Assembly: GCA_021789095.1 (NCBI GenBank)
Contig: JAJYJX010000052.1
Span: forward strand, 1-13,751
Direction: 5' to 3'
Source of the DNA: a bacterium
GTDB taxonomy: Bacteria > JAMCPX01
DNA: 13,751 nucleotides
Position numbers and translations under genes: made by a program. The notes beneath the pieces were generated by a model. It was given only the letters and a program-made list of their open reading frames with translations. It was not told the DNA's origin and did not search any database. Positions 1,518-12,563 of the stretch are shown one piece after another. Position 1 is the stretch's first letter. The number at the start of each line of letters is the position of its first letter.

Positions 1518-3851
1518 TTAGTCCCGCTTTCTGTTAGCCGGCTGGAGGACGAACACCTTCCCTGTTAAGAGCTCTTTCATGCGCGGCTTGCCAAGCAGTT
1601 TTGCGAATTCGCTGTCATTAACGACAGTCATCTTGTAAGAAGGGTTGATCTTGAAAAGTTTTGCGAGTGCATCAAAGGTGCGGGCCTCGTTATGCAGCAT
1701 TATATAACTGCGTGCAAGTGTATACCACGCAACAGGATTGTTTGGTTCGATCTTTGTAAGCTGCAGGGCATAACTTAATGCGTCATTATAATGGTTTGTT
1801 TTCTGGAGACATTCGGTAAGATTTAAAACAGCATTAAAATCCGCCGGGTTTATTGTTACGGCCTCTTTGAGGTATCTTGTTGCGTTTTGGTAATCGGCCT
1901 TCATTGAATAAGCCGTGCCGAGCAGGAAATAATAGGCATCGTTTTTAGGATCATCTTTTAACAGGCTGCTGGCAAGGGACAGCCCGTTATCAATATCGTT
2001 TATGCTGAGGTATGAACTTACAAGGTAGGGTCCCACTTCTTTTATGGACAACGGCATCAGATCAACAGATGTGCGGAATTCATTTATGGCCCCTGCATAG
2101 TTGTCTTTATTGTAGTATAAAAATCCAAGCAGTTTGTGTGCGTAGAAAAAATAAGGCGCCAGGCTTATAACCTTTTTTGTGTTTACTATTGCATCTGCCG
2201 TGTCCATGCTCCCGGCTTGTGCCCTTGCAAGGGTATAGAGTATCATGTAGTCATCGGGTGCAAGTCCATGTGCCCTGGTCATGATATCCATTGCCTTTTG
2301 GGGCATCTTGAGATCAAGGTATGTTTCTGCCTCCATAGTGTAAGCATTGGCCCTGGCCTGTTTATGGGAAAAAGCCGTCAGGTTTCCCAGGATGATAACA
2401 ACGAAGACAAACATTGTTGCAAAAATAATGGTCAGGGTGTAGTTGCTGCCGGTGCCGATCTCGAAATCGTATTTCCATCTCCATTTGAAGCCCGATAACT
2501 TCTTCAGTATCGATATGAATCCGTACTCATCTTCAAAGTGCCTGTACTTGCGTTTGCCTACAACAAGCCCCGCAAATGTCCAGAACATCAATGAAGAGGC
2601 AGGGTTCTCCAGATTGAATGTGAAGAAGGCCGTTACAAGTGCCGCAACAATACCGGATATAATGGCTATGTCCCACAGTATGGTTGGTGTATCATCCTTT
2701 GCGTCTTCAATACTTCGTATACCGGTAACAAAGATCTCAATGATAAACCATAAAAAGAGCACGAGGCCTGTAATGCCGAGTTCGAAAAGTATCTGAAGGT
2801 ATTCATTATGCGCATTGTCAAGGTACCTGAGTTCATGCCAGTCGGTAGACTTCAACGCATTTACCTCATACAGGGGAATGTTGATTTGGTAGTTGCCGAT
2901 GCCTATGCCGAAGGCAGGGTTGTCCTTTGCGCCTTTCAGCGTGCTTTCCCATACAAGCAGTCTGAATGCGTTGGAAGTATAGTCTTTGCTGAATATGCTT
3001 TCGCCCCTCTGGATTAGATCGCTGCCCGTCCTGGTAAAACCTGCAACAATGCCGAAGGTAACAACCGCGGTGATCACGGAATAAAGCAATACCCTCTTCG
3101 TAGTATTGCTGAGCAGCATGTAACACTTGTATGCGCCAAACATTATTGCGTAAAATGAGACTGAGATAACGAGAGCTACCCAGCCTGCCCTGTTCCTGCC
3201 GATAATTATGTAGAACAGCGACAACACAACACCTGCGTAAGCTGCATATTTCAGCGGAACTCTGTCAGACTCTTTTAAGAAAACCGTGAGCATCAAAGGT
3301 ATGACCATCACAAGGTAGTCCGTTGTAAAGTTTGTCAGTCCCATTGTGCTTGCCGGGTTCGGTCTTCCCCATGGATCTACCGGAGGTGAAATGATGTGAA
3401 AGAACTGCATCATACCGTATATGCTTACTATGACGGATACGGCGATCGTAATTATTGTAACCGTCCTCAGCTTTATGTACCTTGCATAATAAATGGAAAG
3501 AAAAAAGGGCGCCTGGTAAGCTATCTGCTTTACGAGCATCTGTATTGCCAGATAATTATTATATGCATGGAAAACCGATATTCCTGCAATAGTATCCAGC
3601 AATATCAGGGGGATAAGCACAGGGGTATAGAAGAAATCCATGCTTTTATAAAGCATGGATTTCAGGAAGTATACTATGATGATAGGCCAGAGAAACAGGT
3701 ATATTACGAAGATCTTTGTCCATATGTATTCGTTCTTATGAAAGATCAGCGGAACAAACAGCAGCATGAGCAACAAGCTTGCTATACTCACATAATCCAG
3801 TTTGCTGAGCAGCGCGTCCGGATGTTTTATAAGAAGCTTATTTTCCATCAT
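1518..3851 (-). CDS. O-antigen ligase/polymerase family membrane protein with C-terminal TPR domain
   Basis: 777 residues. The N-terminal part (about 20-435) holds roughly ten or more hydrophobic segments; a further one lies at about 472-494. It carries Wzy_C/O-antigen-ligase hallmarks: DPWGRPNPAST (159-169), an arginine in GRNRAGW (218-224), GIGIGNYQ (315-322) and the periplasmic-loop motif NAHNEYLQILFELGITG (346-362), where His348 is the likely catalytic-type residue. Residues about 500-740 form several TPR-like helix pairs (for example A-YYFLGTAYSMKADYQNA and AVLNLTECLQKTNHYNDA patterns). Family members transfer or polymerise undecaprenyl-linked glycans on the periplasmic face; lipid A core, protein or polymer acceptors cannot be told apart here. 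The start has an AAGGTGG ribosome site 9 nt upstream, inside the end of the radical SAM gene, which it overlaps by 14 nt. A second Met follows at once. The coding sequence contains a perfect 14-bp inverted repeat (3633-3663). Confidence 0.88.
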   Translation of the reverse strand: MMENKLLIKHPDALLSKLDYVSIASLLLMLLFVPLIFHKNEYIWTKIFVIYLFLWPIIIVYFLKSMLYKSMDFFYTPVLIPLILLDTIAGISVFHAYNNYLAIQMLVKQIAYQAPFFLSIYYARYIKLRTVTIITIAVSVIVSIYGMMQFFHIISPPVDPWGRPNPASTMGLTNFTTDYLVMVIPLMLTVFLKESDRVPLKYAAYAGVVLSLFYIIIGRNRAGWVALVISVSFYAIMFGAYKCYMLLSNTTKRVLLYSVITAVVTFGIVAGFTRTGSDLIQRGESIFSKDYTSNAFRLLVWESTLKGAKDNPAFGIGIGNYQINIPLYEVNALKSTDWHELRYLDNAHNEYLQILFELGITGLVLFLWFIIEIFVTGIRSIEDAKDDTPTILWDIAIISGIVAALVTAFFTFNLENPASSLMFWTFAGLVVGKRKYRHFEDEYGFISILKKLSGFKWRWKYDFEIGTGSNYTLTIIFATMFVFVVIILGNLTAFSHKQARANAYTMEAETYLDLKMPQKAMDIMTRAHGLAPDDYMILYTLARAQAGSMDTADAIVNTKKVISLAPYFFYAHKLLGFLYYNKDNYAGAINEFRTSVDLMPLSIKEVGPYLVSSYLSINDIDNGLSLASSLLKDDPKNDAYYFLLGTAYSMKADYQNATRYLKEAVTINPADFNAVLNLTECLQKTNHYNDALSYALQLTKIEPNNPVAWYTLARSYIMLHNEARTFDALAKLFKINPSYKMTVVNDSEFAKLLGKPRMKELLTGKVFVLQPANRKRD
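3633..3663. repeat. Perfect 14-bp inverted repeat with 3-nt loop inside the O-antigen ligase gene
   Basis: The left arm 3633-3646 (GAAATCCATGCTTT) is exactly complementary to the right arm 3650-3663, separated by TAT at 3647-3649. On the coding (minus) strand it encodes part of the KSMLYKSMDF stretch (residues 64-73), between the second and third hydrophobic segments. No poly-T run follows on either strand, so it is not a standard intrinsic terminator. It would form a stable mRNA hairpin early in the gene, or could be a protein-binding palindrome. Confidence 0.9.
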
Positions 3852-6372
3852 CGTTAAAATCCACCTTAACTTTTTTTAATGGTGCACCAATAATGTCCAT
3901 GTAAGGTATGCCAAGCCCCTTTTCCATGATATCAACAGGACCTATTATCCTGCCCTGTATCCGTTTTATCACCATAAAAAGCCTGCCCGAAACATCGATG
4001 CTTATAACATCGATAAACGGTCTTATGTCAAGTTCACCGGTTTTGTCTTTATGGCCTGATACTATCATAAATTTTTCGCTGCTTAAAAGTAAATCTATTG
4101 CAGAACTCAACACGGACATATTGCAGCTGTTTACTGCGTCAAGTACAAGTTCATAATGGACAGCCCGTATTGCGCTGCTTACGGGTTTGCTGCCGTATGG
4201 AATGCTTACGGCGTTTATGAACGTCAGCCCCCTGTGCTCAGTCTTCTTAAGGGCCTGCATCACTTTACCTGGATCCATATCGCCATTCAGCCTTACATCC
4301 ATGTATTCTGCACTGCTTTCAATGCCTAAGGGCAGGGGATCGCTGAACGATACGACAGGTTTTGGGTGGAACCCGGCCGTGTATGCTAATGGCAGTCCTG
4401 ACCTATGCAGTGCATGCATCAAAAAGTCCATAAGTTCCAGATGTCCCAAGAATCTCATCAATCCTGCTTTTGTATACTGTATCCGCATGACCGTTGACCA
4501 TCTTTCGGTATCATGCTGTTCAACGCTTACCGCGATCTTTGGCGGTTCGGTCTCTGCCGCTACCGGCTCTATACGCTTGAAATCGCAAACCCCGCAATCC
4601 GTGCATACCGCCTGGAAACAGTCAGGCGTGAGGCTGCCGTGTTGCGACTCCTGATATTCCTGCCACAGGAAGGATTTCGGAATAAGCGTGTCTATATGAT
4701 CCCACGGAAAGGGGTCTTCGTGTGAACGCTGCTGAAGCAAATCCGGCAGGGACAGTCCGTTGTTTCCGACCGCATCAACCCATGCTTTATACCATGCCGT
4801 GTAATCAATGCCTGTTTCCGAGCTGTCAATTGTAAATCCATGTTCAACGACCTCTTCAATGACACGCGCCATTCTTCTGTCACCCTTTGCAAGCAATGCC
4901 TCTACAATGCTTATTTCAGGGAGCTGCTGTTTTATAACAACGCCTGTATTCTTTAAGCTGTTTTTCACGATTGAAAGCCTTTTCCTGTATTCTTCCGGCG
5001 CGATCATCCCGGCCCACTGAAAAGGGGTGTGAGGCTTGGGAATAAATGCAGATATGCTTGCGTTGACCAGGGTTCTTTTGCTGTGTTTTCTTACGGCCGC
5101 ATAGATGCGCTTTATGAGTGCTGCCATGCCGTTTACATCATCTTCTGTTTCGAACGGAAGGCCAAGCATAAAATACAGCTTTATAGTCTGCCATCCCATT
5201 TTTGCCGCAAGTTCCACGCTCGAGATTATTTCTTCGTCTGCAATGTTTTTATTTATTGCATCCCTGAGCCTCTGTGTGCCTGCCTCGATAGCCACCGTAA
5301 ACCCGGTCTTCCTTACCTGTTTTATATGCTCAAGCATCTGGCTGGTAACAGAATCTATCCTTAAAGACGGTAGTGACAGGGAACATCTGTCGTCCGCAAA
5401 TTCTGACATAAAGGATTTTAAAAGCTGATGTATGTGCGAATAATCTCCCGCACTCAAAGATAAAAGGCTTATATCGGAGAATCCTGACACATCCACATTA
5501 TGTTTTATTTCTTCAAGAATTGTTCCCATATTTTTTTCCCTTACAGGTCTGTAGATCATGCCTGCCTGGCAGAACCGGCAGCCCTTTGTGCAGCCCCGCG
5601 CTATCTCGACAACGAGCCTGTCATGGACGGGCTTTATTAAAGGGACAATGGAATTTTTCAGGACAACATTGTTTATGCCGGGCAGTATCCTTCTCTTAAG
5701 AGGCCGGGCAGGCTTGTTAACAGGCATGATACCTTTGAAATTGCCGTGTGTGTCCTGGATCTGCCTGTAAAGGCACGGCACGTAAACACCTTCTATATGT
5801 GCAATCCTCTCAAGGCACTCCTGCTTCAACAGGCCCTGTTCCCTGCAAGCTATTGATGTGTCTATCAGCTCCCTTACTGCTTCTTCACCGTCTCCGATTA
5901 CAAAGGCGTCAAAGAAATCCGCAACAGGCTCCGGGCTGAAGGCGCAGCTGCCTCCGCCTATAACAAGAGGGAAGGTATCCGTCCTTTCCCGTGAGTATGG
6001 CTTTAAGCCTGAAAGCCCGATCACATGAAGTGCGTTCGGGAAGTTGAGCTCTGTTTGCAATGTTATGCCTATGATATCGAATTGATCGAGAGGGGTGTCC
6101 GATTCTATGGTAGATAATGTTACGGCATGTCGTTCCATGGCGGCTTCCATGTCTTTGCCTGGCATGTATGCCCTTTCTGCAAGTGCGTACGGCAGGTCGT
6201 TTATCAGCCCGTAGAGTATCCTGAGTCCCAGATTCGATATGCCGATCTCATAGAGATCGGGATAAACAAGAGCAATCTTTAATTTTACCGAATCATGCAG
6301 TTTTACAACGGCGTTCGGTTCAGGACCTATATACCTGCCCGGCCTTTTTACATATTGTAAGAGTTCCCTCAT
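3838..6372 (-). CDS. Radical SAM protein of the TIGR03960 type with C-terminal DUF2344/TIGR03936 domain
   Basis: 844 residues, a normal length for this fusion family. Residues about 30-200 form a B12-binding-like Rossmann region (IALVYPDLYEIGISNLGL, VIGGGSCAFSPEP, VIGDGEEAV). The radical SAM core follows with the 4Fe-4S motif C261-x3-C265-x2-C268 (RGCTKGCRFCQAG), then a SAM-site-like FTVAIEAGTQRLRD segment (358-371). A second cysteine cluster, C585-x4-C590-x2-C593-x2-C596, suggests an auxiliary metal or Fe-S site. DUF2344 starts near residue 628 (MRIQYTKAGLMRFLGHLELM, then GFHPKPVVSFSDPLPLG). The family is widespread and, to my knowledge, has no established reaction; in many genomes it sits near ribonuclease G or ribosomal genes. 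Here it is coupled to envelope genes: its ATG overlaps the upstream phosphoesterase stop as ATGA, and its own end overlaps the O-antigen ligase start by 14 nt. Family assignment is firm, function unknown. Confidence 0.92.
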   Translation of the reverse strand: MRELLQYVKRPGRYIGPEPNAVVKLHDSVKLKIALVYPDLYEIGISNLGLRILYGLINDLPYALAERAYMPGKDMEAAMERHAVTLSTIESDTPLDQFDIIGITLQTELNFPNALHVIGLSGLKPYSRERTDTFPLVIGGGSCAFSPEPVADFFDAFVIGDGEEAVRELIDTSIACREQGLLKQECLERIAHIEGVYVPCLYRQIQDTHGNFKGIMPVNKPARPLKRRILPGINNVVLKNSIVPLIKPVHDRLVVEIARGCTKGCRFCQAGMIYRPVREKNMGTILEEIKHNVDVSGFSDISLLSLSAGDYSHIHQLLKSFMSEFADDRCSLSLPSLRIDSVTSQMLEHIKQVRKTGFTVAIEAGTQRLRDAINKNIADEEIISSVELAAKMGWQTIKLYFMLGLPFETEDDVNGMAALIKRIYAAVRKHSKRTLVNASISAFIPKPHTPFQWAGMIAPEEYRKRLSIVKNSLKNTGVVIKQQLPEISIVEALLAKGDRRMARVIEEVVEHGFTIDSSETGIDYTAWYKAWVDAVGNNGLSLPDLLQQRSHEDPFPWDHIDTLIPKSFLWQEYQESQHGSLTPDCFQAVCTDCGVCDFKRIEPVAAETEPPKIAVSVEQHDTERWSTVMRIQYTKAGLMRFLGHLELMDFLMHALHRSGLPLAYTAGFHPKPVVSFSDPLPLGIESSAEYMDVRLNGDMDPGKVMQALKKTEHRGLTFINAVSIPYGSKPVSSAIRAVHYELVLDAVNSCNMSVLSSAIDLLLSSEKFMIVSGHKDKTGELDIRPFIDVISIDVSGRLFMVIKRIQGRIIGPVDIMEKGLGIPYMDIIGAPLKKVKVDFNDDGK

Positions 6373-7103
6373 GCTGTTTTGCCGTAATACCTGAGATCGA
6401 ATTTACCGTCCTTCAATACCACATAGCTGTACGTATCGAACCAGTTCCCCGTGTTAATATACGCAATCTTCTTCCCGTTAAATGTGTATTCCCTGATCAC
6501 GGGCTCATGGAAATGCGCTGCTATCACGACATCGAATCCCTGCGCAGCCTTTTCCTCTATATACTCATCGAGGACATGGGCAGGCATTGTTCTTTTTTTT
6601 GTCCAGACCTCCCTGCTGTGCCTCGAAAGGCTTGACGCAATATAATTGATAGGGCCTGCGGGAAGTATATATGCAAGCATACGTACAACCCGGCTTCTGA
6701 GGATGAACCTGAACACTCTGTACCATTTGTCGGTATAATCTATCATGTCACCGTGTGTAATAAAGCACCGTATGCCGTCAAGCCCGATGCCTATGCCGTT
6801 TTCTATGATGTCCATGCCGGCAAATACCTTTTTGAATACGCTCCGTGTAAAAAAATCGTGGTTCCCGATATTGTAGTAGAGTTTAATGTCGCGTTCATAT
6901 AACTTCCTGAGTGCGTCCATGAGATTCGCGTAAGCAGGGTCTATGAGTCCGCTTGTGCTCACCCAGTAGTCAAATATATCGCCGAGAAGGAATACAGCAT
7001 CGGGTTTTTCTGTGTCCAGGTTATCAAGAAATGCGACAAGCCTGCCCTGGTTAGGATCGTCCGCGCCTTTAAGGTGTGCATCGGAAAGAAATATGCAATA
7101 CAT
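6369..7103 (-). CDS. LpxH-like calcineurin-type metallophosphoesterase (probable UDP-2,3-diacylglucosamine pyrophosphohydrolase)
   Basis: 244 residues, close to E. coli LpxH. The dinuclear metal ligands are all visible: D8 and H10 (SDAHL), D42 (GDIFDYW), N81 (GNHDFF), H117 (THGD), H197 and H199 (AHFHEP). Their spacing follows LpxH, which removes UMP from UDP-2,3-diacylglucosamine at the inner membrane to give lipid X for lipid A synthesis. An amphipathic region (about 125-160, YRVFRFILRSRVVRMLAYILPAG) corresponds to the LpxH lid that holds the acyl chains. One point is odd: classical LpxH has GNRDF, while this protein has GNHDF, as in generic phosphoesterases and some divergent LpxH-like enzymes, so substrate identity is likely but not proven. 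The start has no Shine-Dalgarno sequence; a TATAAT box lies 6 nt upstream, suggesting a leaderless mRNA. The 3' end overlaps the radical SAM gene by 4 nt. Confidence 0.85.
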   Translation of the reverse strand: MYCIFLSDAHLKGADDPNQGRLVAFLDNLDTEKPDAVFLLGDIFDYWVSTSGLIDPAYANLMDALRKLYERDIKLYYNIGNHDFFTRSVFKKVFAGMDIIENGIGIGLDGIRCFITHGDMIDYTDKWYRVFRFILRSRVVRMLAYILPAGPINYIASSLSRHSREVWTKKRTMPAHVLDEYIEEKAAQGFDVVIAAHFHEPVIREYTFNGKKIAYINTGNWFDTYSYVVLKDGKFDLRYYGKTA

Positions 7104-7109
7104 GGGAAA

Positions 7110-7140
7110 ATTATATTTCGCTAAACAGGGGGTATGTCAA
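7110..7140 (-). promoter_or_regulatory. Sigma70-type promoter for the LpxH-like gene, leaderless geometry
   Basis: On the minus strand a perfect TTGACA (7135-7140) and a perfect TATAAT (7110-7115) are separated by 19 nt, slightly longer than ideal. Only TTTCCC separates the -10 box from the ATG at 7103-7101, so transcription would begin at or next to the start codon. No purine-rich ribosome site lies in this stretch. It would drive the phosphoesterase, radical SAM and O-antigen ligase genes independently of uvrC and tatA. Confidence 0.55.
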
Positions 7141-7219
7141 ATCATATCTCAAGAAATTCAATAGCTGGATTTGCTTGTTTGCTCAACCCGATACAGAGGT
7201 CTATTTGCCGGGCAAGAGA

Positions 7220-7444
7220 TTAGTTCGGCTTTGTTGGAGTGTCTTTTTTCTCTTCCGGTTTATTTTCCGGAAGTGATTTTTTTGTTTCAGTTGTTGATGG
7301 GGACTCAAGCTCATTCATCGACTTTTTGAAGTTCTTGATTGCTTCTCCAAGGCTCTTACCAACCTCGGGGAGTCTTTTGCCGCCAAAAAGCACAAGTATG
7401 ATTATGAATATCACTATCAGCTCTGGCATGCCTATATCAAACAT
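7220..7444 (-). CDS. tatA: Twin-arginine translocase TatA/TatE-family subunit
   Basis: 74 residues. A short N-terminal stretch MFDIGMPEL leads into one membrane helix (about 8-20, rich in I/V/L). The hallmark [21 protein letters not shown] (20-40) follows, forming the hinge and amphipathic helix, and then a charged Lys/Glu/Pro-rich tail. TatA oligomers form the conduit through which folded Tat substrates cross the cytoplasmic membrane. Residue 8 is Glu, as in some TatB proteins, but the FGGKRLPE hinge and short tail favour TatA/E. The open frame extends 19 codons further upstream, but I place the start at 7444 because AAAGGAG lies 6 nt before this ATG and the family begins here. No tatB or tatC is in the window, so the partner genes must lie elsewhere. 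It sits 69 nt after uvrC with its own promoter candidate. Confidence 0.92.
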
Positions 7445-7450
7445 CTTTTT

Positions 7451-7457
7451 CTCCTTT
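7451..7457 (-). promoter_or_regulatory. Ribosome binding site that fixes the tatA start
   Basis: AAAGGAG on the minus strand, 6 nt before the ATG at 7444. It supports the 74-residue form over the longer open frame starting at 7501, which has an out-of-family N-terminus. Confidence 0.8.
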
Positions 7458-7472
7458 TGCCTGCTTTTTATT

Positions 7473-7501
7473 ATGATAAACTTTATTAAAATAAATTTCA
7501 A
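7473..7501 (-). promoter_or_regulatory. Candidate promoter for tatA
   Basis: Minus strand: TTGAAA (7496-7501), a 17-nt spacer, and TATCAT (7473-7478), in an A+T-rich gap between the uvrC stop and tatA. It leaves a leader of roughly 20-25 nt that includes the AAAGGAG ribosome site. The surrounding A+T bias makes chance matches easier, so the confidence is moderate. Confidence 0.4.
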
Positions 7502-7513
7502 CTGTTTTGAGAA

Positions 7514-9358
7514 TTACCCGGCCAGGCGCCCATGGATCTCCTTTGCCACGCTTATCGGTATACCGGTGCGTTTGACGATCTCCTCAGGCAGGGCATTCCT
7601 GATCTCCTCAATGCTGCTGAAAATCGACAGCAAAAGCCGTTTTCTTTTCTGTGATACTCCTGCAATACCGTCAAGCGCAGAGAGAAGGCCGGTTTTTGAC
7701 CTTAGTTTCCTGTGATACGTTATTGCAAACCTGTGCGCTTCATCCCTTATACGTTTTAAAAGCATAAGCGGTTCCGAGCCGTGTATGAGGTTTAATGGAT
7801 CTTTCCTGTTCGGTATGTAGACCCTGTCTTCTTCCTTATCTATACGGTGCCTGTTGCTGACTGAGGATAGGTTTTCCCTGCGCAGTTTTGCAATGCCTAT
7901 AACATCGGGCTGTTCGATATCCAGATCCTTCAGCACTTTGAGCGCTATGCTGAGCTGCCCCTTGCCTCCATCCACAATAATGAGCGAAGGTATGTCCTGC
8001 CTGTCCCTGAACCTTCTTGTAAGCACCTCGTGCATCATTGCATAGTCATCGGGCCGTTGTACCTCCCTGAGCCTGTAATGCCTGTACTTTGCCTTCACAG
8101 ATAAACCGTTTTCAAACCGCACCATTGATGACACGCTGTTTGTGCCCATGATGTTTGAATTGTCAAAGCACTCTATTGCCGTGGGAAGGTTTTTGAGATG
8201 CAGCAGGTCCTTTAATGATTCGACTGCGGACAATGATACCGCCTCTTTATGCAGGGATAACTGCATATACTCTGTAGCGTTCTTTGCGGACAGATTGAGC
8301 AAATCCAGTTTTTTTCCGCCTGAAGGCACATTTATACGGACGTCGCCGCCTTTTAGTTCTGCCAGACGTGACCGCACGACCTGCATGTCCGGTATTTCGA
8401 ACGGCAGATATATGTTGGCAGGTACAAAATGGCCGTTCTCGTAGTACTGCCTTATGACGGAGCTCATAAGCTCCTCGGGGTCAAGCACTGTATCCCTGAA
8501 CATGTAGTTCGTTGAATTCAGGAGCTGTCCGCTGCGTATGAAAAGCCCGTTTACGGCAAATGTTGTACCGACGGACGAAAGGTTGAACACATCAATGTCA
8601 ACGGCCCTTGCGGATTCCACCTTCTGCTGCTCGACAGTCTTTTGTATATTGAAAATGAGGTCCCTTATCCGGGCTGCCTTTTCATAGTGCTCACTGTCCG
8701 ACTCTGATTTCATCTGTGCCTTCAGTCCTTTAATGACTGCGTTTGTTTTCCCTTCGAGAAAGAGTTTTGCCTGTTTTACACGTTCTTTATAATCTTCCTG
8801 TGTTATGCGGTTCGCGCACGGAGCTGAACATCTTTTGATCTGGTACTTCATACACGGCCTTATCCTGTTCCTGAGCTCTGCGTCTGTGCAGGTTCTTAGC
8901 TGGAACAGGTCTGTTATCAGTTTTACGGTTTCCCTTGCTGCACGTGCTGAGGAATACGGACCGAAGATCAATGAACCGTCCCTCACCGGCCTTCTCACGA
9001 CCTGTATGCCCGGGAATTTATGATCCGTCGATATGCGGATGTTAACATAGGTCTTATCGTCCTTTAAGCGTATATTGTATCTGGGTCTGTTCTTCTTGAT
9101 AAGATTGTTTTCAAGCAGCAGTGCCTCTTTCTCGGTGTCTGTCAGCATGAATTCTATGTGCTTTATCCTGGGTTTGAGAAAATTTATAAATGGGCGCGTA
9201 TCGGGTGACGCCGTAAAATACGCCCTCACCCTGTTGTTGAGGTCCAATGCCTTGCCTATATAAAGTATGCTGTCCCTGGCATCCTTGAACAGGTAAACAC
9301 CGGGCTGTTTCGGCACAAGGCCGAGTTTGTCATGAATGGTCTGGTCTACTTCTATCAT
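7514..9358 (-). CDS. uvrC: UvrABC excinuclease subunit C
   Basis: 614 residues, full family length. The N-terminal GIY-YIG nuclease (about 15-95) has PGVYLF, LYIGKA (Y33), R43 and E83, and makes the 3' incision. Cysteines C157, C169, C177 and C181 have the 12-8-4 spacing of the Fe-S cluster described in UvrC. A UVR motif (about 203-240) contacts UvrB. The RNase H-like domain has D399 (IECFDNSN), D463 (IIVDGGKGQ) and H542 (EAHRFA), and makes the 5' incision. Tandem helix-hairpin-helix motifs (about 555-612) bind DNA. All catalytic residues are present, so it should be active in nucleotide excision repair. The ATG at 9358 gives the expected 18 residues before PGVY. It has no Shine-Dalgarno sequence, and a TATAAT ends 7 nt upstream, implying a leaderless transcript. 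It is the first gene of the minus-strand block. Confidence 0.97.
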   Translation of the reverse strand: MIEVDQTIHDKLGLVPKQPGVYLFKDARDSILYIGKALDLNNRVRAYFTASPDTRPFINFLKPRIKHIEFMLTDTEKEALLLENNLIKKNRPRYNIRLKDDKTYVNIRISTDHKFPGIQVVRRPVRDGSLIFGPYSSARAARETVKLITDLFQLRTCTDAELRNRIRPCMKYQIKRCSAPCANRITQEDYKERVKQAKLFLEGKTNAVIKGLKAQMKSESDSEHYEKAARIRDLIFNIQKTVEQQKVESARAVDIDVFNLSSVGTTFAVNGLFIRSGQLLNSTNYMFRDTVLDPEELMSSVIRQYYENGHFVPANIYLPFEIPDMQVVRSRLAELKGGDVRINVPSGGKKLDLLNLSAKNATEYMQLSLHKEAVSLSAVESLKDLLHLKNLPTAIECFDNSNIMGTNSVSSMVRFENGLSVKAKYRHYRLREVQRPDDYAMMHEVLTRRFRDRQDIPSLIIVDGGKGQLSIALKVLKDLDIEQPDVIGIAKLRRENLSSVSNRHRIDKEEDRVYIPNRKDPLNLIHGSEPLMLLKRIRDEAHRFAITYHRKLRSKTGLLSALDGIAGVSQKRKRLLLSIFSSIEEIRNALPEEIVKRTGIPISVAKEIHGRLAG

Positions 9359-9365
9359 TATAAAT

Positions 9366-9393
9366 ATTATAATTTAAAAAAACGATTTGGCAA
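9366..9393 (-). promoter_or_regulatory. Sigma70-type promoter for uvrC, leaderless geometry
   Basis: Minus strand: TTGCCA (9388-9393), a 16-nt spacer, and a perfect TATAAT (9366-9371). Seven nucleotides, ATTTATA, separate the -10 box from the ATG at 9358, so the start site falls at or within a base of the initiation codon and no ribosome site can be accommodated. The region is A+T-rich, so a coincidental box cannot be excluded. Confidence 0.5.
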
Positions 9394-9451
9394 TGAGGTT
9401 CTTTACAATCTTATTGCAGTTCCGGGTTAACAGGTATGCGTCTTTATTTAT

Positions 9452-9480
9452 TTGCATATCTTAATAAAAATGCGTATACG
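9452..9480 (+). promoter_or_regulatory. Weak promoter candidate for the glycosyltransferase operon
   Basis: TTGCAT (9452-9457), a 17-nt spacer and TATACG (9475-9480) lie about 37 nt before the GT2 start, within the 159-nt divergent gap between uvrC and this operon. The match is partial. No operator-like palindrome is clear; the sequence ATGCGT occurs at both ends of this stretch (9436 and 9470 regions). Confidence 0.3.
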
Positions 9481-9517
9481 GAATAATACAAGGACAGGAT
9501 ACTAACGGAGATATTAA

Positions 9518-10255
9518 ATGGAAGGTATTACAATCTTTTATCCGATGTACAATGAAGAGCTGTATATAAAACGGGCTGTGGAAGCGGCAAAAGAGGTGTG
9601 TGAGCGCATGTTGAAGATCGGGGAAATACCCGATTACGAGGTCCTGCTCATTGATGATGCTTCAAACGATGCAACAGGCAGGATCGCGGACGAGCTTTCT
9701 GCGCAGGACAGCCGTATACGGGTCATCCATCATACATCCAACAGGGGACTGGGCGGTGCTTTGAAAACGGGTTTTTCAAATGCAAAGATGGATACGGTGC
9801 TTTATTCCGATACGGATCTTCCATTCGACATGATGGAACTGAAGAAGGCGTTCAGGCTCATGAGATACTACGAGGCAGATATTGTTTCCGCATTCAGGTT
9901 TGACAGGACGGGAGAGGGGCTTATCCGGCTTATATATTCCTATGTGTACAACACACTTATAAAAGCACTGTTCGGCCTAAGGATAAAAGATGTGAATTTC
10001 TCATTCAAGCTTGTGCGTAAAGAGGTATTTGAATACGTAATCCTTAAATCCGAAGGCAGCTTTATAGATGCGGAGCTGCTTATCAGGGCGCAGAGGTACG
10101 GATTTAAGATCATACAATTTGGGACAAATTATTTCCCGCGCAGCAGGGGCATTTCAACTTTGTCGAGCACTGCCGTTATCGTCAAGATTATCAAAGAGAT
10201 GTTCTCCATATACAGGGAGATTAAATCCATCCGGCCAGTTGTTAAGAGACGATGA
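9518..10255 (+). CDS. Family 2 glycosyltransferase, dolichol/undecaprenyl-phosphate sugar synthase type
   Basis: 245 residues with a GT-A fold. Features are FYPMYNEE at the start, the nucleotide-sugar acidic pair D46-D47 (LIDDASNDAT), a NRGLGGALKTGF segment (75-86), the metal-binding SDTD (97-100), and a KDVNFSFKLVRKEVF segment (157-171) typical of polyprenyl-phosphate sugar synthases such as DPM1, ArnC and FlmF. A later FIDAELL (182-188) fits the catalytic-base region. These enzymes move a sugar from a UDP or GDP donor to a polyprenyl phosphate at the inner membrane. Unlike ArnC it has no C-terminal transmembrane helices, so it should be a cytosolic or peripheral enzyme. The ATG has CGGAG 7 nt upstream. 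It is the first gene of a three-gene operon and its stop overlaps the deacetylase start (ATGA). I infer that it loads a HexNAc on undecaprenyl phosphate; the donor sugar cannot be read from the sequence. Confidence 0.88.
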   Translation: MEGITIFYPMYNEELYIKRAVEAAKEVCERMLKIGEIPDYEVLLIDDASNDATGRIADELSAQDSRIRVIHHTSNRGLGGALKTGFSNAKMDTVLYSDTDLPFDMMELKKAFRLMRYYEADIVSAFRFDRTGEGLIRLIYSYVYNTLIKALFGLRIKDVNFSFKLVRKEVFEYVILKSEGSFIDAELLIRAQRYGFKIIQFGTNYFPRSRGISTLSSTAVIVKIIKEMFSIYREIKSIRPVVKRR

Positions 10256-11055
10256 CGAAATTCCTTGTAGTAAACGCGGACGATTTCGGACTTTGCAGGG
10301 AAATTACAACAGGTATTATCAAAGCATACAAAGAAGGAATCGTTACGGCAACATCGGTCGTTGTTAACGGCAGGTATTTTAAAGAAGGCATACGGCTTTT
10401 AAAGGACTCAGGCATTGATGCGGGCATACACCTTACATTTACAGGCGGGGAAAAGCCTGTTTTATATGATGTTGATGGGCTTGTTGATAATAACGGCTTT
10501 TTTTTAAATAGCTACAGAGAGGTAATTCCAAGGATTATACTTCGAAGGTTTGATCGCAATGCGCTGGAGAAAGAATTATCGGGACAGATCGGCATACTCA
10601 AAGATAACGATGTATCGGTCAGCCATATAGACAGTCATCAGCACCTTCATCTTTTACCCGGCATTAAGGATATTGTAATAAAACTCGCACAGCGATTTAA
10701 GATAAGATGGATAAGAGTACCGCGTTCAACCGGTATAGGTATTAAAGACTTTGTCATGAAGATGTTAGGCAATACCCTTCAGTCAAGATTAAGGGACAAC
10801 AGTCTCGGTTTTACAGACTGGTTCAGGGGTTTTGAAAGGGGCGGGCACATGAACGAATATGTACTTTCTTCCATGCTGCCAGGTATTGCGGACGGCATTA
10901 CAGAACTGATGGTCCATCCGGGTTATGATGCGTCCGGTTCTTATGACTGGGGATATGCATGGGAGGATGAGCTGAAAGCGCTTACGTCCGCAAGTATAAA
11001 GTCATTGGTAAAAAGAAGTGGCATAGTATTGACAAACTTTAAGGAGATTAGATGA
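10252..11055 (+). CDS. YdjC/ChbG/HpnK/NaxD-family sugar deacetylase
   Basis: 267 residues. Characteristic motifs are NADDFGLC (8-15, with acidic residues D10-D11), GIHLT (58-62, H60), SHIDSHQHLHLLPG (124-137, D127 and a His cluster that binds the catalytic metal), RVPRS (155-159) and the late MVHPGYD (220-226, H222). The family removes N-acetyl groups from carbohydrates. Known members act on chito-oligosaccharides (ChbG), on undecaprenyl-phosphate GalNAc (NaxD of Francisella) and in hopanoid glucosamine synthesis (HpnK). No signal peptide is visible, so it should act in the cytosol. It sits exactly between a polyprenyl-phosphate sugar synthase-like GT2 and an ArnT-like transferase, with 4-nt overlaps on both sides. 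This favours the NaxD role, making a lipid-linked amino sugar. An HpnK role is the main alternative, but no hopanoid genes are in view. All metal and acid motifs appear intact. Confidence 0.88.
   Translation: MTKFLVVNADDFGLCREITTGIIKAYKEGIVTATSVVVNGRYFKEGIRLLKDSGIDAGIHLTFTGGEKPVLYDVDGLVDNNGFFLNSYREVIPRIILRRFDRNALEKELSGQIGILKDNDVSVSHIDSHQHLHLLPGIKDIVIKLAQRFKIRWIRVPRSTGIGIKDFVMKMLGNTLQSRLRDNSLGFTDWFRGFERGGHMNEYVLSSMLPGIADGITELMVHPGYDASGSYDWGYAWEDELKALTSASIKSLVKRSGIVLTNFKEIR
11041..11046 (+). promoter_or_regulatory. Ribosome binding site for the GT39 gene, inside the deacetylase end
   Basis: AAGGAG lies 5 nt before the ATG at 11052, within the last codons of the deacetylase. It supports efficient re-initiation at the ATGA overlap and fixes the GT39 start. 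Confidence 0.75.
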
Positions 11056-12563
11056 AAGGTAAGAGGTATACATACGTAACTTTTGCTGTAATTGCTGGAT
11101 TCTTGATATTCAGGGTATTTTACTTGGCAACAACACATTACACCCTTTCTCAGGATGAGGCATACTTCTGGGATTGGTCAAGACATCCAGCCCTCAGTTA
11201 TTATGATATGGGGCCAATGATTGCATGGATCATAGCCTTTTTCACGCATATACTTCCATTATCCGCATTCTCTGTAAGGCTTGGAGCACCGGTATTTGCA
11301 GCCATGACCGCTGTTGTTGTCTATCTACTAACAGTTGAAGTTACAGAATCAAGGATGCTTGGACTTATAGTAGTGCTGCTGTTTCATATCCTGCCCATAG
11401 GTATGGCAGGAGGCGTTATAATGACATACTATTCCCCTCAAGTTTTCTTTATGTCTGTAACAGCACTTTTTTTATGGAAACTTATAACCGATGGCAGGGC
11501 ATGGTGGTGGTATCTTATAGGGTTAAGCCTTGGGCTTGGTCTGCTGTCACATCACATGTTTATCTTTTTTACGGCAGAGGTGGGTTTATTTATATTTCTT
11601 TCTGACAACAATAGAAAATGGCTGAGGCACAAAGAACCTTACCTTGCTCTTCTTATAGAGTTGATCGTGGCAAGTCCTATTCTGATCTGGAATGCAATGC
11701 ATAACTTCGTTATGTTCAGACATGCCATTGGTATGATGTCGGAAACACACAACATCACATTTACATTATTTGAATATATTGGAGGACAGGCGGGTATAGA
11801 AGCCGGATTTTTCTTTGTTGCGGTTGTTTATGGGCTAAGCGTAAGTGGTTACAGAGGCATAAAATTCAAGAATGATAAATATCTGTTTCTATTCTGCTTA
11901 TCTGCACCGGTTATACTTTTTATAGCGCTTCTCAGCATAGGCGGAAGAACAGAGCCGAACTGGCCTGTATCGGGTTACGTAACAGGTTCTATTGCTGCCG
12001 TATACGTACTCTATGAAAAGTATAAAAACGGCAGGCGTGGTATCCGCATACTTATTGATGTTGGTCTTGGATTTACCATATTTATATGTGTACTTGCATC
12101 GGCACTCGCATATTATCCTTCTCTTATGCACGCTGGAGGTATATATATACCACCGCAAAGAGATCCTACAAATAGAATGTATGGATGGAGAGAACTTGGA
12201 GAAAATGTGTCGGAAGTATTGAAGGATATGCCGGCCGGGAGTTTTGTTGCAACGCATGAGTACGGGCTTAATGCAGAGCTCGCCTTTTATGTAAAAGGAC
12301 ATCCGGAGGTTTATGAGATACCCGTGATCAGGCGTTTCAGCCAGTATGATTTCTGGAACAACTTTAGGGCGGTTAAGGGCAGAGACGCTGTTTATGTAGG
12401 GTATGCACCTATGGAAAAAGAGGTCGACGCCTTATTTAATAAGGTAGGACCTGCTGAGGAACTTGTAATCAGAACCAGACATACTCATGCCGCACGGTTC
12501 ACGTTTTATATTTACCGGTGCTATGGATACAAGGGAACACCGGAAGAACTGGCAACATTTTGA
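11052..12563 (+). CDS. GT39/ArnT-like polyprenyl-phosphate-sugar glycosyltransferase, integral membrane
   Basis: 503 residues with about ten to twelve hydrophobic segments over residues 8-355 and a soluble C-terminal part (about 360-503). The PMT_2/ArnT signature TLSQDEAYFWDWSRHP (31-46) lies in the first periplasmic loop, with the catalytic-type acidic pair D35-E36. The downstream YYDMGPM (50-56) replaces the more usual YYDHPP. GGRTEPNWPVSGY (297-309) is another family motif. Such enzymes take a sugar from an undecaprenyl- or dolichyl-phosphate carrier on the periplasmic side and pass it to an acceptor; ArnT and FlmK use lipid A. Being last in an operon with a carrier-loading GT2 and a deacetylase suggests that it transfers a deacetylated amino sugar. 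The acceptor (lipid A, core, protein or another lipid) is not decided by sequence. Confidence 0.88.
   Translation: MKGKRYTYVTFAVIAGFLIFRVFYLATTHYTLSQDEAYFWDWSRHPALSYYDMGPMIAWIIAFFTHILPLSAFSVRLGAPVFAAMTAVVVYLLTVEVTESRMLGLIVVLLFHILPIGMAGGVIMTYYSPQVFFMSVTALFLWKLITDGRAWWWYLIGLSLGLGLLSHHMFIFFTAEVGLFIFLSDNNRKWLRHKEPYLALLIELIVASPILIWNAMHNFVMFRHAIGMMSETHNITFTLFEYIGGQAGIEAGFFFVAVVYGLSVSGYRGIKFKNDKYLFLFCLSAPVILFIALLSIGGRTEPNWPVSGYVTGSIAAVYVLYEKYKNGRRGIRILIDVGLGFTIFICVLASALAYYPSLMHAGGIYIPPQRDPTNRMYGWRELGENVSEVLKDMPAGSFVATHEYGLNAELAFYVKGHPEVYEIPVIRRFSQYDFWNNFRAVKGRDAVYVGYAPMEKEVDALFNKVGPAEELVIRTRHTHAARFTFYIYRCYGYKGTPEELATF

Follow-up and report, generated by a model that had tools for sequence, protein, structure and literature searches.

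A conserved three-gene operon predicted to make an amino sugar and attach it to the cell envelope, most likely to lipopolysaccharide

The window analysed here, a contig of 13,751 nucleotides (JAJYJX010000052.1, C185 in our numbering) from a bacterium of the phylum-level group JAMCPX01, carries a compact unit of three genes on the forward strand. They encode a glycosyltransferase of family 2 (GT2; 9518..10255, 245 aa), predicted to be a soluble polyprenyl-phosphate N-acetylhexosamine (HexNAc) synthase, a YdjC-family deacetylase (10252..11055, 267 aa) and a GT39/PMT_2 membrane glycosyltransferase of the GT-C type (11052..12563, 503 aa). The ATG of the deacetylase gene lies within the stop of the GT2 gene, and the same ATGA overlap, read directly in the sequence, joins the second gene to the third (10252-10255 and 11052-11055). 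An earlier note on this DNA had given the three reading frames and both overlaps exactly so, and had likened them to the FlmF2-NaxD-FlmK and Lgm systems that decorate lipid A with amino sugars. The source assembly (GCA_021789095.1) comprises 2.15 Mb in 203 contigs and is about 92% complete. The trio is a real, conserved and horizontally mobile operon, predicted to make an envelope amino sugar and to attach it, most probably, to lipopolysaccharide (LPS).

The first protein matches the Pfam family Glycos_transf_2 (1.1e-29). A profile of 13 relatives retrieved from the PDB ArnC (1e-20), dolichyl-P-mannose synthase (6e-19) and the GtrB-type protein sll0501 (2e-18), the first two over nearly their full length, a degree of similarity to solved members that characterises the polyprenyl-phosphate sugar synthases. 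Its Kyte-Doolittle mean over 19 residues peaks at 1.12, so that no hydrophobic helix is present, which bears out the earlier observation of a GT2 without membrane helices; three such helices were seen in the same analysis of the GT2 from the Acinetobacter NaxD operon. Both proteins were also separated with 100/100 support in the tree, which sets the window GT2 apart from the membrane-anchored ArnC/FlmF2 type. It is distant from HpnI as well, and the PpgS model matches it weakly (21 bits against a cut-off of 370). Within the window's phylum, GT2 identity amounts to 80-82%.

The second protein belongs to the YdjC family by profile (1.6e-58; 199 bits against a cut-off of 29.7) and by residues D10, D11, H60, H129 and H222, which are invariant with NaxD, HpnK and ChbG. 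Its relatives in the PDB are the chitooligosaccharide deacetylase 7vi8 and the YdjC protein 8jqe. In the tree, which holds few and long-branched NaxD, ChbG and HpnK sequences and does not include the Francisella and Bordetella proteins, it forms a clade of its own outside these three branches. The single NaxD compared, that of A. baumannii, is 24% identical to it and stands on a separate long branch. The lack of a signal-like hydrophobic segment suggests that the deacetylase is probably cytoplasmic. Viral contigs, when searched for this protein, contained no match.

The third protein is a PMT_2 transferase (PF13231, 5.3e-24; 85.7 bits against 26.1) with about 11 hydrophobic segments and the signature DEAYFW...YYDMGPM. 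Its identity across eight genomes is 72-87%, and YYDMGPM is invariant in 8/8 relatives, which confirms the DMGPM in place of DHPP that had been noticed in the window. ArnT splits off in the tree with 100/99 support, leaving the window protein on the side of the rhizobial GT39 enzymes, for which homologues rather than the characterised RgtA-D were compared. The earlier description of this protein as ArnT-like thus gives way to an RgtA-D-like PMT_2 assignment, in keeping also with its motifs (see below). Rhizobial RgtA-D/PMT_2 proteins share the GT39 domain family, with a DEAYYW...DHPP arrangement and about 23-28% identity; the characterised Rgt enzymes transfer galacturonic acid and, unlike the window's system, involve no YdjC step. 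Loci combining GT39, GT2 and two-component regulators were also seen on Rhizobium and Martelella plasmids (L163, L164 and L165), with a PAP2 phosphatase in Martelella, and are candidate loci for regulated decoration of envelope lipids.

Two further GT39 paralogues occur in the window's phylum. The sister of the window protein (100/99) carries the same DMGPM motif and directly adjoins gmhA, called from a profile match slightly below the equivalog cut-offs, in 5/5 genomes examined (L122, L124, L126, L128 and L129); it is probably an LPS core enzyme. The other paralogue has an EHPP motif and its own soluble GT2 (L125:5996-9879, also L123, L127 and L130), and the two may form a second carrier-linked sugar pathway. 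In genome G002, an ArnT-like gene lies next to the EHPP gene.

Nine genomes of the window's phylum, from one family and four genera, were compared. The order of the trio is kept in eight of them and recurs in two metagenome-assembled genomes (MAGs) of another lineage, so the arrangement is more than chance. The scattering in related genomes that the earlier note had named as grounds for rejection is thereby excluded. The remaining genome, G007 (92% complete), has none of the three genes but retains both other GT39 paralogues, LpxC and LptFG, reflecting either loss or an assembly gap. Between the window and G001, identity is 81% for GT2, 83% for GT39 and 65% for YdjC, as compared with 70% for UvrC and 64% for an LpxH-like protein encoded nearby. 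In G006 the neighbours of the trio are partly exchanged, and the trio therefore behaves as a stable unit.

The two MAGs (L030 and L031), found in a scan of named genomes, come from groundwater and are labelled "Deltaproteobacteria". Their complete trio is 78% (GT2), 61% (YdjC) and 61-65% (GT39) identical to that of the window, whereas LptF, LptG and LpxC of the L030 lineage share only 29%, 33% and 36% with their counterparts in the window's phylum. Given this disparity, the trio has moved as one block by horizontal transfer between these lineages. In L030 it sits inside an lptF-lptG operon, in the order lptF (2412-3620), a gene for an S-adenosylmethionine (SAM) methyltransferase (3617-4255), GT2 (4267-5004), YdjC (5001-5810), GT39 (5807-7315) and lptG (7442-8524). 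L031 has the same order plus an additional methyltransferase-like gene between GT2 and YdjC, and in both MAGs LptF and LptG score above the NCBIfam equivalog cut-offs. For the L030 SAM methyltransferase, the best match in the phylum of the window has 20% identity (E 2e-8) and is not an ortholog, so this gene is no part of the window's version. A search of 198 genomes of the L030 phylum returned trio-level matches in these two MAGs only, the rest being distant YdjC proteins. In Burkholderia cenocepacia, LPS export is reported to require 4-amino-4-deoxy-L-arabinose (L-Ara4N) on the lipid A of LPS, and arnT can be lost only when a suppressor in lptG is present (PMC5377068), which makes the lptF-trio-lptG operon noteworthy.

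The nearest other pairs of GT2 and YdjC were found in Acidimicrobiia and other Actinobacteria (GT2 45-62%, YdjC 32-36% identity). The actinobacterial YdjC proteins are sister to those of the trio with a support of 94, while NaxD, HpnK and ChbG fall elsewhere. A test for LpxC was negative in seven genomes of Actinobacteria and one of Chloroflexi, and positive in L030, L031 and genomes of Verrucomicrobia and Omnitrophica; some of the genomes in this comparison are incomplete MAGs. The actinobacterial pair is accompanied by a different GT-C protein, which is not PMT_2-like, and often by a SAM methyltransferase. The full cassette of GT-C, soluble GT2, YdjC and SAM methyltransferase was observed in L052 (2903-6504) and also in L054, L047, L065, L073, L167-L169, L171, L183 and L187, with no LpxC detected in those of the genomes that were tested; no name for it was found in the literature searched, nor did a search linking Acidimicrobiia and YdjC return anything. 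In the actinomycete locus L065 (4173-5837), GT2 and YdjC form one continuous reading frame of 554 aa, so that steps one and two are naturally fused. Across 18 loci, GT2 and YdjC distances are strongly correlated (Mantel r 0.835, 0/2000 permutations), as would be expected of a co-inherited pair that makes a donor. Such a distribution suggests that the acceptor is determined by the third gene and not by the GT2 and YdjC pair.

As to the acceptor in the window's phylum, LpxC, LptF and LptG are present in 9/9 genomes, and these organisms are therefore equipped for lipid A synthesis and export. Together with the lptF/lptG location in the second lineage and the GT39 paralogue beside gmhA, this favours LPS, which we regard with moderate confidence as the acceptor.

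The pathway logic, in which a carrier-linked HexNAc is made, deacetylated and transferred outside, is well supported. The soluble GT2 would act at the surface of the cytoplasmic membrane, moving HexNAc from UDP-HexNAc to undecaprenyl phosphate, and YdjC, as a metal-dependent deacetylase, would take off the acetyl group while the sugar still faces the cytoplasm. This donor assembly is the part of the scheme that seems likely. The lipid-linked amino sugar, possibly glucosamine or galactosamine, would then be flipped by a putative flippase, and on the periplasmic side GT39 would move it to lipid A or the LPS core, leaving the surface with less negative charge. The full proposal, production of a polyprenyl-phosphate-linked hexosamine by the operon followed by its attachment to LPS, is one that the comparisons favour to a modest degree.

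Several characterised systems resemble this scheme. NaxD deacetylates undecaprenyl-linked GalNAc prior to transfer onto lipid A (PMC10927774), and the naxD operon of Acinetobacter and FlmF2-NaxD-FlmK of Francisella, which yield galactosamine on lipid A, likewise combine GT2, YdjC and GT-C genes and share the predicted chemistry. The Acinetobacter baumannii operon (L022), taken as the naxD operon by gene content, was the closest characterised system and served as reference; its order is YdjC (5980-6774), GT2 (~6768-7751) and ArnT-type GT39 (8141-9787), as opposed to GT2, YdjC and GT39 in the window. The naxD-type transferase is of the ArnT type with a KP motif, in contrast to the window's PMT_2 with DMGPM, and the GT2 of the reference is membrane-anchored, not soluble. 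In Bordetella, LgmB is described as the inner-membrane enzyme that adds glucosamine to the phosphates of lipid A (PMC11401268), and LgmA/B/C, likened here by description only, would have the same outcome (a hexosamine of +161 Da). In mycobacteria, the GT2 PpgS and the GT-C protein Rv3779 put galactosamine on arabinogalactan (PMC3485146, PMC9671496); as in the window, a GT2 polyprenyl-P-HexNAc synthase is coupled to a GT-C that moves an amino sugar to an envelope glycan, but the acceptor is not LPS and these two papers name no YdjC partner. The actinobacterial cassette is closest in GT2 and YdjC, and differs in its GT-C family, its extra methyltransferase and its hosts.

A number of observations weigh against LPS decoration by the trio. 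Since LptF and LptG are 86-89% identical between L030 and L031, two closely related MAGs, the lptF/lptG placement counts as a single event in one lineage, and in the phylum of the window these two genes adjoin each other, not the trio. The closest GT2 and YdjC pairs sit in Actinobacteria without LpxC, so the pair alone implies no lipid A. Among 22 close actinobacterial GT2 genes from 148 sampled genomes of the class, YdjC is adjacent in eight and was not detected within ~1.5 kb in 14, which means that this GT2 can act without a deacetylase. The window GT39 also lacks the RYA and YFEKP motifs of ArnT, whose Tyr and Lys, respectively, have been shown to matter for function (PMC5377068), although RYA is missing from the Acinetobacter ArnT too, where the KP motif is present. 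Finally, a PDB search with the GT39 profile gave no match, and an AlphaFold prediction from three sequences reached a pLDDT of only 41 and was discarded, leaving this protein without a structure.

The same donor pathway could serve another acceptor, the hexosamine ending up on a protein, a surface polymer or an envelope glycan other than LPS, and we consider this possible, with a minor but appreciable probability. The pairs joined to other GT-C genes in LpxC-less Actinobacteria and one Chloroflexi genome would fit such a role, as would the PpgS/Rv3779 precedent; the acceptor-choosing GT-C there is a different one, however, and the trio-clade genomes tested all have LpxC, with lptF/lptG and, for the paralogue, gmhA as LPS contexts. 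It is unlikely that the deacetylase acts after transfer, on the finished glycan, or, in the manner of ChbG, on a soluble oligosaccharide, instead of on the lipid-linked sugar. YdjC relatives do include soluble chitooligosaccharide deacetylases, and the GT2 genes with no YdjC nearby would agree with late deacetylation, but the tight coupling to GT2, the correlated divergence and the GT2-YdjC fusion favour direct action on the GT2 product, as does the probable cytoplasmic location of the enzyme.

Orthology to FlmF2-NaxD-FlmK/Lgm, masked by mere divergence, is very unlikely. The three enzyme classes are the same and the YdjC catalytic residues are common with A. baumannii NaxD, yet the GT2 proteins are split at 100/100 and differ in anchoring, YdjC is a long branch away from NaxD, and GT39 parts from ArnT at 100/99. 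By the Acinetobacter reference, the only one used, the descent test fails for all three proteins, and the window operon is therefore not FlmF2-NaxD-FlmK by descent. Of the match proposed in the earlier note, the functional logic stands, given the lptF-trio-lptG operon, LpxC throughout and the absence of hopanoid synthesis, whereas the family match does not; its phrase "divergent version" is an understatement, and convergent assembly describes the operon better. Hopanoid decoration of the HpnI/HpnK type, named beforehand as a grouping that would overturn the lipid A proposal, is extremely improbable and was rejected. HpnK is indeed the best NCBIfam match of YdjC, but at 149.8 bits it falls below the cut-off of 232.6; YdjC is far from annotated HpnK in the tree, as GT2 is from HpnI, no squalene-hopene cyclase reached the cut-off in any of the nine genomes, and the hopanoid pathway has no GT39 step. 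LPS decoration remains the preferred reading. A bolder extension of it would see the trio as an "amino-sugar licence" that spreads horizontally and equips LPS, combining a donor pair common to LPS-less Actinobacteria with a transferase of the Rgt type; LptFG would recognise the product, and the cassette would for that reason have settled between lptF and lptG in the recipient lineage. This extension is speculative and rather doubtful.

The surroundings of the operon are as follows. At its 5' border, uvrC (7514..9358, reverse strand; TIGR00194, 2.8e-166, above cut-off) is transcribed divergently, and it adjoins the trio also in L012, L013 and L015. An LpxH-like metallophosphoesterase gene (6369..7103, reverse strand) lies outside the operon, in an order preserved in G001 (L015). 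LpxH models are its top NCBIfam matches, in agreement with the earlier reading, but both stay under their cut-offs (106 against 134 and 93 against 190). Positions 3838-6372 encode a fused B12-binding radical SAM protein (TIGR03960 and TIGR03936/DUF2344, both cut-offs exceeded). Further away lies the gene for a Wzy_C protein, O-antigen ligase/polymerase-like (1518..3851, reverse strand; 4.8e-22), with a long C-terminal tetratricopeptide repeat region, which could be a polymerase, a ligase or an oligosaccharyltransferase. Promoter matches were not enriched over shuffled sequences (8 against 9.5).

Amino-sugar decoration of lipid A is known mainly from Proteobacteria, in which polymyxin resistance and recognition by the immune system depend in part on it. 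If the proposal holds, the same chemistry would have been reached through other enzyme branches, by a cassette that is shared with LpxC-less bacteria and has moved as a unit between unrelated lineages, and envelope amino-sugar decoration would be modular: one donor pair would serve interchangeable transferases, which select the acceptor. Labelling these genes "hopanoid HpnK" or "ArnT-like" would mislead, and the lptF-trio-lptG operon allows a connection of lipid A decoration with LPS export to be tested.

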